Below are positions 4,327 to 16,259 of a DNA stretch of 20,293 nt, piece by piece. Each line of letters begins with the position of its first letter. Position 1 is the stretch's first letter. Origin of the DNA: a virus. Both the position numbers and the translations under genes were made by a program. The notes beneath the pieces were generated by a model, which was not told the origin of the DNA, did no database searches, and saw nothing but the letters and a program-made list of their open reading frames with translations. The stretch covers positions 1-20,293 of IMG/VR virus record IMGVR_UViG_3300006334_000115, one strand, 5' to 3'.

Positions 4327-5391
4327 TTATACCTCAAAGGATACGTCAGCGTCAACCTTATCGTAAAGTTGCTGAAACGCTTCCTTGGTTTCTTCGTCAA
4401 AACGTGAGATACAAGTAGTGATTGCCTTAGCACGATTGCCAAAGATCTCGTATGCTTTTACGATGTGAACAAGTCTACGTGTTGAGATAACCTCGTCGAT
4501 ACCACCGTCAAAGAATGTCTTACGGATGATGTCTGCCCAGTCGCAAAGTCTCTTGTTGAACTCTTTGTCTGTTGACAATAGATCGAGCATCTTCTGCTCT
4601 GTCTGTGGATGAGGATAGTTCTGCTCAAAAGTAACAGGGAATCTCTCAAGGAATGCTTCGTTAAGAACGTTAGTGCCTACGAATCTGCCATCCTCAGAAC
4701 CTTTACCTTTTGTGTTAGCAGTAGCAACAACAGTAAATCCTGATGCAGGTTTTACATACTTACCGATCTTCTTAAGGAAGACACCTTTACCTTCAAGAAT
4801 AGATTGTAAACATAGTATCTTGTTAGATGCTAGGTCGATCTCGTCAAGTAATAGAACTGCACCTCTTTCAAGTGCTTCGACTACAGGACCGTTGTGCCAT
4901 ACTGTGTTGCCATCAACAAGTCTGAATCCACCGATAAGATCATCTTCGTCTGTCTCGATAGAGATGTTGACTCTGATCAACTCTCTGTTTGCTTTGGCAC
5001 ATGCCTGTTCTACAGAGAATGTCTTACCGTTACCAGATAGACCTGTGATGAATGCAGGATAGAAGATACCTGATTGAATAATTTTTTTGACATCGCTGAA
5101 GTTACCGAATGGAACAAAGGTATCAACTATCTCTGGAACAAGGTTCTGTTCAACTGAGGGGATTACAGAGGGTGCTGAGAGTGCTTTTGTAAGGATCTCT
5201 CTGCCTTCTTGTATAGTTAAATTCCATGTACCTTTCTTGACTTGGAAGTTTTTTAGTTTGCGAGATACAGTTGCGTATCCTACAGAATACTTTGTTGCAA
5301 ACTTTTTGACATGTGATGCGTCGATGTTATTACCGAACTCGTCACGTAACTCGTCTACGAAGTTGACTGGTAGTTTTCTCTCAAATGGCAT
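4327..5391 (-). CDS. cobS: CobS-like AAA+ ATPase (cobaltochelatase subunit / MoxR type)
   Basis: AAA+ ATPase related to CobS, the motor subunit of aerobic cobaltochelatase, and to MoxR ATPases that work with VWA partners. The 354 aa show Walker A GLSGNGKT at residues 117-124, Walker B LLLDEID at 180-186, sensor 1 ATAN at 223-226, and LERFPV at 248-253 near the expected arginine finger. Residues 26-60 look like a small helix-turn-helix (KKFATKYSVGYATVSRKL), a form I recall from cyanophage CobS. CobS genes are a known accessory gene of cyanomyoviruses. No CobN is visible, so a full cobaltochelatase would need the host's CobN, or the protein remodels something else with the CobT-like neighbour. 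There is no clear Shine-Dalgarno before the ATG. Confidence 0.88.
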   Translation of the reverse strand: MPFERKLPVNFVDELRDEFGNNIDASHVKKFATKYSVGYATVSRKLKNFQVKKGTWNLTIQEGREILTKALSAPSVIPSVEQNLVPEIVDTFVPFGNFSDVKKIIQSGIFYPAFITGLSGNGKTFSVEQACAKANRELIRVNISIETDEDDLIGGFRLVDGNTVWHNGPVVEALERGAVLLLDEIDLASNKILCLQSILEGKGVFLKKIGKYVKPASGFTVVATANTKGKGSEDGRFVGTNVLNEAFLERFPVTFEQNYPHPQTEQKMLDLLSTDKEFNKRLCDWADIIRKTFFDGGIDEVISTRRLVHIVKAYEIFGNRAKAITTCISRFDEETKEAFQQLYDKVDADVSFEV

Positions 5392-5480: not shown

Positions 5481-7706
5481 CTATGCAATCTGGTCGATGA
5501 AGGAAGATAAGATCTTCTTGTTCATCTTCTTTCCTTTTAGAGACTTAACGAATGCTCTCTTGATATCTGCTTTTGAATCTGACTTAGGTTCAAACTCAGA
5601 GTCAGTGTTTAGTGCTGATGCTGCTAGACCATACTGAACTGTCCAGTATGAAGATGCACAGATGAATGATTTTGTTTTCTTCCACTCTGCATTTGCACGT
5701 GATACGTTCTCTTCTGTGTAGTCGTCACCGAAGCAATCTACTTTGAATCTGTGCCACTCACCTGATCCTAGTAGTCTGATATTCATGAAAGAACACTCAG
5801 GGAATCTGTCACGTAAGTAAGATACAAACTGTCTTGTTTGTCCTGAGTAGTAGTCTCCTGAGAACTTATACATTCTACCTGTCTTGCGGTCACGTAGGAT
5901 GTATCCGTTACCCATGTGTGATGCGAAGAGTGACTCTGTTCCGTCTCTGTCAACATACTTCTTACCCGCACGTAATGGATTGCCATCGCCATCAGTTAGA
6001 CATACAACATGAACCTTCTGTGCTCCTGTTCTTGACTTGAACTCAGGGATGATGTCATTCATAGCGATCAAAGACTCATTGAGTGGAGTGCCACCTAGTC
6101 TTAGTTTCTGAGGAACAGCAGCACCACCGTAATTGACAATAGATGATGCAAGACGGTATAGATTTTGTTGCTGTCTGTCTGCAACTCTCTTGTTTGTTTT
6201 ACTTGATAGAACATTGATCATGTTGAAGTTGTCAAGGATAACTTTACCGTTGATCAAAGACTCTTCTGCAACATCGTGGTAACTTCCATGATACTCATAT
6301 GCATCAGTGAAAAGATATACATCATAGTCAATACCAACCTTGCGACAGAATGATACAAGTGTCAATGTCTGTTTGATAGTATCAAGAACCTGATGATGCA
6401 TGGAACCAGACCAATCAACATTGAAGATTAGACCGTGACTCTTAGCATCAGGGATTGTTGTGATCTTCTTGAATAGATCATCATTGTATTTGTATGTGTG
6501 AAGATTAGCAGTATCAAGAATACCAGTTCTAGATGTAGTAGCACGTGCATAACCATCTGCTGCTTTCTTCATCTCAAACTCTTTTACAAGATAATTAACT
6601 TCTTTGTTAGAAGATGTCTTGAATGCTTTGTATGCTGCATCTGATGCATCAAGATCTTGAACTCTCCACTTTGCTTGCTCAAGATCATACTCGTCAGCAA
6701 AGTCTGTTTGACGTCTAAATGCATCTGTCTTAGCATAATGATCTGAAAGATAGTCTTGGATATCTTTGTTAGAAACCATGTAGTTGATAGGAATCTTAGG
6801 AACCTCAACATAGATGTTCTCTCCTGCTTCCTTATTAACAAGTTTCTTCTGTGATTGTGTTGCTGCCTGTGCAGTAGATACTTGTGGAGTATCATCAGTA
6901 GGACCGTTCTGACGTCCTGCTTGTGTAGTTGGATTGCCATGCCACTCTTCTTGCTCATCAGTAGGTTGTGCATCTCTGTCCTTAAGAATGTCAATTGGTT
7001 GTAAGTCTGTTGCTTCTTCCTGACCTTCTTCTTCTCCTGCTTCTGTAGGAGCATTAGATGACTCTACAGTGTTGTTGTTTTCTGACTTACCTGTAGATAG
7101 ATCTTCTAGAGGATTGTTTGAGTCTAGAGCGTCATCTTGCTGAGGTGCTTCTTCTTTCTGTTGCTTGTCAAGTTGCTCTTGGCAGAATACAAAGATCTCT
7201 TTAGCAAGTGCAACTGCATCGTCAAATGTTTCTAGAGCATCACACTTAGGAAGGAATGCTGCTTCCTCTGTTGTGAATGGGATGTCTCTGTAGTTGCCGA
7301 TCTTGTATTGTAGATTGATCTTGTCTGCAAGATTGAGTTGTGTAAGATCTTTGTTGTTAAGACCGAAGAACTCGTCAATGTCAAGTGCTTGGTAACCTTT
7401 GAAGAATGTCTTAGGAAGACCTTCGTATCTACGCTTGATAAGTTTCTCGATACGGATATCTTCTGTTACGTTTAAGAACATCTGTGGAACTTCGTCTAAC
7501 CACTCGTTATCTTCTGGTGTGTATAATGCATGACCTACCTCATGTGCGATGAACATGTCGATAACATCATTACACTCATGCTCCCATGTAGGTAGAGTTA
7601 GGACTCTGCTGTATACTTCAAACTGTGCTGTCTCTACAGGACGATGCTCTACAATAAGATTCTCTGTGGCAAGTAGTTTAGCAAGTGATTCTTTGACGAT
7701 GTTCAT
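5481..7706 (-). CDS. cobT: CobT-like VWA protein with an HExxH metallopeptidase-like N-terminus
   Basis: Large protein (741 aa from this ATG). In CobT the VWA domain partners the CobS ATPase in inserting cobalt into the corrin ring. The C-terminal VWA domain has the MIDAS residues DWSGS (431-435), the Thr of LGGTPL (about 538-543) and LTDGDGN (about 570-576). A low-complexity acidic/Gln linker covers about residues 180-290, as in CobT. The N-terminal region contains AHEVGHALYT (HExxH at 55-59), followed 20 residues later by NVTEDIRIE. This resembles a gluzincin zinc site with a downstream glutamate, so proteolytic activity is possible but unproven. An upstream ATG at 7733 would add nine residues; I prefer 7706 because the added residues sit against a terminator-like hairpin. 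Neither start has a clear Shine-Dalgarno. Confidence 0.85.
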   Translation of the reverse strand: MNIVKESLAKLLATENLIVEHRPVETAQFEVYSRVLTLPTWEHECNDVIDMFIAHEVGHALYTPEDNEWLDEVPQMFLNVTEDIRIEKLIKRRYEGLPKTFFKGYQALDIDEFFGLNNKDLTQLNLADKINLQYKIGNYRDIPFTTEEAAFLPKCDALETFDDAVALAKEIFVFCQEQLDKQQKEEAPQQDDALDSNNPLEDLSTGKSENNNTVESSNAPTEAGEEEGQEEATDLQPIDILKDRDAQPTDEQEEWHGNPTTQAGRQNGPTDDTPQVSTAQAATQSQKKLVNKEAGENIYVEVPKIPINYMVSNKDIQDYLSDHYAKTDAFRRQTDFADEYDLEQAKWRVQDLDASDAAYKAFKTSSNKEVNYLVKEFEMKKAADGYARATTSRTGILDTANLHTYKYNDDLFKKITTIPDAKSHGLIFNVDWSGSMHHQVLDTIKQTLTLVSFCRKVGIDYDVYLFTDAYEYHGSYHDVAEESLINGKVILDNFNMINVLSSKTNKRVADRQQQNLYRLASSIVNYGGAAVPQKLRLGGTPLNESLIAMNDIIPEFKSRTGAQKVHVVCLTDGDGNPLRAGKKYVDRDGTESLFASHMGNGYILRDRKTGRMYKFSGDYYSGQTRQFVSYLRDRFPECSFMNIRLLGSGEWHRFKVDCFGDDYTEENVSRANAEWKKTKSFICASSYWTVQYGLAASALNTDSEFEPKSDSKADIKRAFVKSLKGKKMNKKILSSFIDQIA

Positions 7707-7878
7707 GATAATTGCTTTGTTGTATATACCCATAATAACAAGAAAACCGTCCCTTGGGACGGTTGAGTAGACACTTTATCAACTGTCTACTTCGTTTTCT
7801 TGCTTGACGTAATGCTTGTGGTTTAAGGTGGCGTTTCTTTTCCTTCTTGGAATGATGCTGCCAGTTAGGGGTTGTCAT
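7678..7878 (-). CDS. Small basic protein of unknown function (66 aa)
   Basis: The ATG at 7878 overlaps the gp46 stop (TAATG) and has an excellent AAGGAGG five bases upstream, one of the best ribosome sites in the window, so translation here is very likely. Residues 9-33 are strongly basic (HSKKEKKRHLKPQALRQARK), suggesting nucleic-acid binding. The C-terminal half is encoded through two hairpins, one terminator-like, and the ORF then runs into the start of the CobT-like gene by 29 bases. It is therefore unclear whether the last 30 residues (from about NRPKG) matter. If transcription stops at the hairpin, the mRNA would lack a stop codon. No family recognised. Confidence 0.6.
   Translation of the reverse strand: MTTPNWQHHSKKEKKRHLKPQALRQARKRSRQLIKCLLNRPKGRFSCYYGYIQQSNYHEHRQRITC
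7741..7764 (-). terminator. Rho-independent terminator-like hairpin after gp46 and small basic ORF
   Basis: On the minus strand AACCGTCCC pairs with GGGACGGTT: nine paired bases with a very short loop, or eight with a CAAG tetraloop. It is followed by TTCTTG, giving TTTTCTT across the stem end. A second hairpin, GTAGACA/TGTCTAC at 7767-7790 with a ten-base loop, stands directly upstream. Together they separate the gp46 transcript from the CobT-like gene. Confidence 0.65.
7767..7790. repeat. 7-bp inverted repeat upstream of the terminator
   Basis: The arms gtagaca (7767-7773) and tgtctac (7784-7790) are perfect inverse complements, with the loop ctttatcaac. This is a second hairpin in tandem with the terminator-like one, inside the small basic ORF. 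It may assist termination or protect the 3' end of the gp46 transcript. Confidence 0.5.
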
Positions 7879-15797: not shown

Positions 15798-16259
15798 TTA
15801 GGGAATCTTAACAATATCTTTACTTCTTTGAGTGAAGTCAATACCCTCCATATGGTCATATTCATGTTGAAATACTCTAGAAGCAAGTCCTTCTAACTTC
15901 ATTTTATGAGTTTTCTTATCCTCATCTTCATACTTGACTACAATTTTATCTGGTCTTTTAACCTTTAAGAAAACATCTGGATATGATAGACAACCTTCTT
16001 CCATTTCAACCTCTTCATTATATGACTTAATAATACGAGGATTGAAACATACTATGATTTCATTGTGTTCTAAATCTCTTATCATTGCAAAAGCTCTTTC
16101 CCATATACCAATTTGATTTGCTGATATACCAATACCTTTGTAATGTATCATATTTTCAACTAAAGTATTGGATAAAAATTGACGATCTAATTTATAGCTG
16201 CACGAATCAATACGATGATGAAATAATTGATGTTCTGGTTTTACGAGTTCTCTGATCAT
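15798..16259 (-). CDS. def: Peptide deformylase
   Basis: Removes the formyl group from the N-terminal methionine of new proteins. In cyanophages it is thought to help process photosystem proteins such as D1 during infection. The 153 aa are shorter than the roughly 168-aa bacterial enzymes. All three motifs are present: GIGISANQ at 42-49 (GxGxxAxQ, with Ile-Ser instead of the common Leu-Ala), EGCLS at 88-92 with the metal-binding Cys90, and QHEYDH at 131-136 with two histidines and the catalytic Glu. No Shine-Dalgarno precedes the ATG. Instead an AATAAATA element ends four bases upstream, after the gp23 terminator, so the mRNA may be nearly leaderless. Confidence 0.93.
   Translation of the reverse strand: MIRELVKPEHQLFHHRIDSCSYKLDRQFLSNTLVENMIHYKGIGISANQIGIWERAFAMIRDLEHNEIIVCFNPRIIKSYNEEVEMEEGCLSYPDVFLKVKRPDKIVVKYEDEDKKTHKMKLEGLASRVFQHEYDHMEGIDFTQRSKDIVKIP

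Follow-up and report, generated by a model that had tools for sequence, protein, structure and literature searches.

AAA+/VWA pairs and the cyanophage locus

Among the closest described systems, CobST inserts cobalt, and cobS, the AAA half of the phage pair, is widely counted as a vitamin B12 auxiliary metabolic gene. The characterised relatives CobST and NorQD act in metal insertion, and neither is known to cleave proteins. CobT (PF06213 and PF11775; PDB 9uka and 21vu) combines an N-terminal domain, an acidic linker and a VWA domain with a metal-ion-dependent adhesion site (MIDAS); it also carries an ED/EQ-x-R-x-E motif and has a CobS-type AAA+ partner, and all of these features recur in the phage protein studied here. 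In the cryo-EM structure of NorQD, which inserts iron, a finger of the VWA protein enters the AAA+ pore, the N-terminal domain docks on the small AAA+ subdomain of the ring, and ATP turnover was proposed to twist the linker between the NorD domains (PMC13036017). The N-terminal domains of NorD and CbbO have been described as unrelated (PMC9976466). For phages, the CobS/CobT-like pair was proposed to be a cobaltochelatase, with "peptidase" regarded as a misannotation (PMC8651126).

The window analysed here, a stretch of 20,293 bases, originates from a T4-like cyanophage of the Prochlorococcus P-HM1/P-HM2 group; its closest relatives, Prochlorococcus phages MED4-213, P-HM1 and P-HM2, share 87–91% DNA identity with it across most of its length. 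The CobT-like open reading frame starts at an ATG at 7706 or, in a longer version, at 7733, and the P-HM2 annotation begins at the equivalent of 7706. An earlier note on this DNA had described HEVGH at residues 55–59, an acidic linker, a VWA domain with a MIDAS and a CobS-like AAA+ partner. The minus-strand translation bears out each of these elements, with NVTEDIRIE at residues 79–87, the linker at about 190–275, the MIDAS residues D431/S433/S435, T540 and D572, and a tightly linked MoxR-clade gene at 4327–5391 (Table 1).

Table 1. Features of the CobT-like gene and its AAA+ neighbour (window positions).
Feature	Residues	Position	Strand	Basis
CobS-like MoxR-clade AAA+ ATPase, presumed motor partner	354 aa	4327..5391	-	AAA_5 (E 4e-18), CbbQ_C; phrog_249; PDB matches CobS, NorQ, CbbQ
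CobT-like VWA/zincin protein	741 aa	5481..7706	-	Translation; PHROG 459 "peptidase" (E 5e-252); T4-GC 146; "peptidase" in P-HM2
N-terminal zincin-like domain	1-190	7137..7706	-	AlphaFold2 pLDDT 89.8, pTM 0.85; Foldseek zincins; CobT N-domain homology via intermediates
HEVGH, predicted zinc-binding/catalytic motif, on predicted helix 46-62	55-59	7530..7544	-	H, E, H invariant (83/83 and 82/82)
NVTEDIRIE ("glutamate helix"), on predicted helix 75-93; E82 candidate third ligand	79-87	7446..7472	-	N79, E82, D83, R85 invariant
Acidic low-confidence linker	191-275	6882..7136	-	pLDDT about 30 (30-36); sequence
TGILDTANLHTYKYNDDLFKK, conserved, precedes VWA core; co-linear with CobT "EGYLDSARL..."	394-414	6465..6527	-	Profile alignment
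VWA domain	421-741	5484..6446	-	Alternating strands and helices in model; hhalign P 2.8e-7 to phage CobT_C-type VWA
MIDAS motif DWSGS	431-435	6402..6416	-	D431/S433/S435 invariant (82/82)
MIDAS Thr540	540	6087..6089	-	Invariant where aligned (80/80)
MIDAS Asp572	572	5991..5993	-	Invariant where aligned (78/78)

Homologues of the CobT-like protein were found in 463 phage records, cyanophages nearly throughout, and T4-like viruses that infect marine cyanobacteria almost always carry the gene. Both the label "peptidase", which is the existing family name in PHROG 459 and GenBank, and the claimed CobT homology are already known. The gene has been filed either as a "peptidase" or as part of a vitamin B12 enzyme, and both appear to apply. 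The P-HM2 transcriptome paper mentions neither peptidase nor cobalamin genes in its main text. A Pfam search with the window protein matched no family, neither PF06213 nor PF11775 appearing at E ≤ 1, and PDB and Pfam relatives of P0001 were looked for and none found. The partner ATPase scored 68.9 bits against the CobS model TIGR01650, far under its cutoff of 558.55.

Conservation and predicted fold of the N-terminal domain

H55, E56, H59, N79, E82, D83 and R85 were identical across all 83 full-length homologues. The same seven residues were also identical in all 82 rows of a second alignment, which comprised 79 far homologues, the query and two reference phages and had a median pairwise identity of 31%; the far homologues had been retrieved from viral contigs by peptide patterns that did not contain HExxH. 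The HExxH motif thus held in both alignments of the conservation check suggested in the earlier note, and the MIDAS residues D431, S433 and S435 were likewise fixed in 82/82 rows of the second. As regards the downstream glutamate of the gluzincin site named in the earlier note, a conserved glutamate does lie nearby, but residue 87 is variable (E in 53 rows and D in 29 of the second alignment), and the best candidate for the third ligand is E82 rather than E87. E82 is retained in relatives that lack both histidines, so its invariance alone is no proof of metal binding.

The N-terminal domain (residues 1–190) was modelled with AlphaFold2 using 74 relatives. The model contains three short strands, a helix (46–62) bearing HEVGH, a helix (75–93) bearing N79–E87, and then further helices, placing HEVGH and E82 on consecutive predicted helices. 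Near the top of a Foldseek search of the PDB were selecase, ArdC, abylysin, jannalysin, collagenase ColH, the cold aminopeptidase/LTA4H and IrrE. In this comparison with gluzincin folds, which the earlier note had proposed, the leading matches were mostly gluzincin-type zincins, none of them individually significant (best E 0.11, probability 0.92). Against viral models, CobT/VWA phage proteins ranked first, followed by IrrE-like, SprT-like and other metalloproteases. The minigluzincins (selecase, abylysin and jannalysin) and the ArdC/IrrE zincins resemble the predicted phage domain in having HExxH and then a glutamate on the next helix; they differ in that their individual fold scores are weak and that the small ones have neither a VWA domain nor an AAA+ partner.

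The full-length model showed two ordered regions separated by a disordered linker. By analogy with NorD (PMC13036017), the TGILDTANLHTYKYNDDLFKK segment ahead of the VWA core is possibly a pore-inserting finger.

Homology to CobT and probable loss of the site

Profile comparisons linked the cyanophage family to CobT in steps. The cyanophage N-domain profile matched a set of phage and plasmid CobT-like proteins (P 2.5e-14), this set matched the N-domain of 91 true bacterial CobTs (P 1.8e-12), and the cyanophage VWA domain matched CobT_C-type phage VWA domains (hhalign, P 2.8e-7). A direct comparison of the cyanophage and CobT N-domains was borderline (P 0.0015), and the intermediates are therefore needed. 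The bacterial scan used a CobT fragment as bait, and only sequences retrieved with it entered the analysis; the resulting set includes Sinorhizobium CobT, which matches the PDB CobT chain at 1e-296. The A1–A3 comparison was left aside because A3 includes the sequence of the window itself. Judged by these profiles, the cyanophage protein is a distant homologue of CobT, co-linear with it along the whole length.

None of the 91 true bacterial CobTs has HExxH in the N-domain. In the profile alignment, the phage-type DHEVAH lies opposite a block that reads DSMALR or a variant in CobT; this pairing supersedes a hand alignment of HEVGH with CobT "CHDAKVH". Bacterial CobTs sharing the motif, which the earlier note had named as evidence against its own reading, were thus not encountered (0/91). 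A further difference is that the phage protein has no Pfam match. HExxH followed by NxxED does occur in CobT-like proteins encoded by SSU5/Cyrano phage-plasmids, by Rhizobium phages and one Roseobacter phage, by an IncC plasmid and in several bacterial genomes, and several of the HExxH-bearing proteins exceed the Pfam CobT cutoffs. The "CobT" proteins of the SSU5/Cyrano-type phage-plasmids and Rhizobium phages share with the cyanophage protein the HExxH and NxxED motifs, an adjacent CobS-like AAA+ gene and a neighbourhood of replication genes. Unlike the cyanophage protein, part of them score above the PF06213/PF11775 cutoffs, they lie in a DnaE/ligase context, and some have lost HExxH.

The cyanophage protein is thus best described, at the level of sequence, as a CobT homologue retaining a putative zinc-peptidase site that CobT lost. 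Homology combined with a retained site means that "peptidase" and "CobT" are not alternatives and that each label has a basis. The 2021 paper that judged the peptidase label mistaken misses this combination. The earlier note's contrast of a peptidase rather than a cobalamin enzyme stands as regards the retained HExxH and the missing CobN, but it separates the two too strictly, given that the protein is distantly homologous to CobT along its whole length. We found no account in the open-licence PMC literature of the CobT N-domain as a zincin relative whose lost site is retained in phage forms.

An unrooted tree of the N-domain, from which the trait columns had been left out, placed true CobT in one clade and the cyanophage family in another, and required four changes at the site: one in CobT and about three in phages. 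The phage lineages without HExxH are nickie (DSEISK), ANB28 (DREVST) and an Acinetobacter group (DQEVAK); all three keep the AAA/VWA pair, which indicates that the pair can work without HExxH. Loss is the most probable direction of change, judging from how widely the intact site is distributed and from the zincin-like fold. N79 and D83 accompanied HExxH in 68 of 70 rows and occurred as a pair in 0 of 31 rows without it, although only three to four of these contrasts are phylogenetically independent. E82 was present in 99/99 tree rows, the histidine-less ones included, which implies a role for E82 beyond zinc; its retention together with its neighbours where the histidines are lost indicates that part of the motif is non-catalytic.

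Several deviating forms were also seen. A bacterial genome (L270) encodes a relative whose zinc motif, HEIVCH, contains one extra residue; NILEDPRGE nonetheless follows it. The CobT-like protein of Vibrio phage ICP2 (L204, 3981–5723) has HECYH, and Val replaces the conserved Glu of its ED motif. On Methylobacterium plasmid pAMS5a (L090, 1064–3492) the CobT-like protein is split, its N-domain being fused to sigma-70 region 4 and its VWA domain lying on the next open reading frame.

NorD/CbbO-like VWA proteins from bacterial genomes (L357–L381, open reading frames of about 750–770 aa) aligned RYRASLAHMAAH...FEDSRVEYLAMQRYPGLRK with the HExxH/ED site, the position of the catalytic Glu being substituted; hhalign gave P 9.7e-7 to the phage/plasmid set and 1.4e-5 to the cyanophage set. 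The NorD/CbbO-type partners of NorQ/CbbQ resemble the phage protein as members of a MoxR AAA+/VWA machine, the phage AAA partner matching NorQ and CbbQ, and in the alignment of "LAHMAAH...FEDSRVEY" to the phage zinc site. They differ in the replaced catalytic Glu and in a much longer N-terminal region.

Genomic context and proposed function

In most loci a CobS-like gene lies beside the CobT-like gene; one was found in 70 of 80 cyanophage, 67 of 79 far and 75 of 78 SSU5-type loci, despite short flanks. In cyanophages the pair neighbours gp46/gp47, sliding clamp and clamp-loader genes, and in SSU5-type elements it adjoins DNA ligase and DnaE. On the IncC plasmid, pair-type genes lie beside ssb, bet and exo: a single cluster (L089, 1804–9797) encodes an AAA ATPase and a CobT-like VWA protein with HExxH together with ssb, bet, exo and DUF3150. 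From position only, a function of this cluster in plasmid recombination is suggested. The IncC VWA protein is like the phage protein in its HEAAH...NVLEDCRIE, the AAA+ gene in its cluster and its recombination context; unlike it, it has a different VWA subtype (PF00092) and is not phage-borne. Searches of viral contigs with the IncC protein found no relatives, and tblastn of plasmids gave no match to the Ochrobactrum phage protein. A PADLOC search returned no defence match for the pair, and a weak match to AcrIIA26 was judged to be chance. Separately, the window contains a peptide deformylase-like gene (15798–16259), and 24 of the 79 far loci also have a deformylase gene close to the pair.

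We propose, with a probability of roughly 0.55, that the pair carries out ATP-driven remodelling and cleavage of a protein at the replication/recombination stage, as an AAA+/VWA machine with a built-in zincin. Such a machine would act on a phage or host protein and would not be a cobalamin enzyme. Its architecture would be that of NorQD, with a zincin as the N-domain: the AAA+ ring would grip the VWA module, as shown for NorQD and CobST, the linker would serve to remodel the bound protein, and this protein would be cut by the N-terminal zincin, presumably with zinc bound. Against the proteolytic part of this reading speak the three phage lineages that keep the pair without HExxH, the metal-inserting role of the characterised relatives CobST and NorQD, the weakness of each single zincin match and the retention of E82 where the histidines are lost. 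The three lineages are consistent with a remodelling chaperone whose zincin fold serves to dock a substrate or the AAA+ protein, the HExxH zinc being only structural or a relic: phages that retain the pair have lost the site about three times, E82 and the ED motif persist in relatives without the histidines, and the NorD N-domain is seen docked on the small AAA+ subdomain by cryo-EM (PMC13036017). We nevertheless regard such a chaperone as rather unlikely, since the catalytic Glu E56, which a structural zinc does not need, is invariant in both alignments, and N79/D83 go with HExxH in the pooled set (three to four independent pairs).

That the pair is a cobaltochelatase, inserting cobalt together with host CobN and thereby boosting cobalamin synthesis, with "peptidase" a misannotation (PMC8651126), seems improbable. 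It accords with the distant CobT homology in both domains and with the CobS-like partner; CobN is possibly supplied by the host, and a CobN-family protein is present in Synechococcus elongatus, the cyanobacterial genome used as a control. Weighing against it are the scores, namely the lack of PF06213/PF11775 in the window protein and the partner's shortfall against the CobS model, and the fact that the cyanophage family keeps without exception the HExxH that 91/91 true CobTs have lost. No CobN is encoded in the window, as the earlier note had remarked, nor in any of the 16 complete phage or plasmid sequences examined, and related pairs reside on E. coli, Salmonella and Acinetobacter phage-plasmids and on the IncC plasmid with no CobN on the same record. 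To our knowledge, the hosts of these elements are not known for aerobic B12 synthesis. More doubtful still is a metal-insertion chaperone whose HExxH/Glu site holds a metal for delivery to a metalloprotein such as a reductase, oxygenase or deformylase. CobST, a characterised relative, inserts a metal, and 2OG-oxygenase and deformylase genes lie near the pair in some loci. NorQD, too, inserts a metal, iron (PMC13036017). However, CobT, itself a metal-inserting relative, lost the site, and an invariant general-base Glu would be unexpected in a carrier.

The pair belongs to the core gene set of T4-like cyanophages. Should the partner of the CobS-like ATPase prove to be a conserved zincin, a very abundant marine viral gene has probably been misread as a B12 gene. 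We further suggest, tentatively and at somewhat less than even odds, that the CobT/NorD/CbbO VWA co-chaperones descend from AAA+-coupled zinc peptidases, with phages and plasmids keeping the intact, replication-stage proteolytic form and the cellular metal-insertion chaperones being relics in which the zinc site was lost. If true, this would give the poorly understood CobT N-domain, and possibly those of NorD and CbbO too, an evolutionary origin as an inactivated peptidase.
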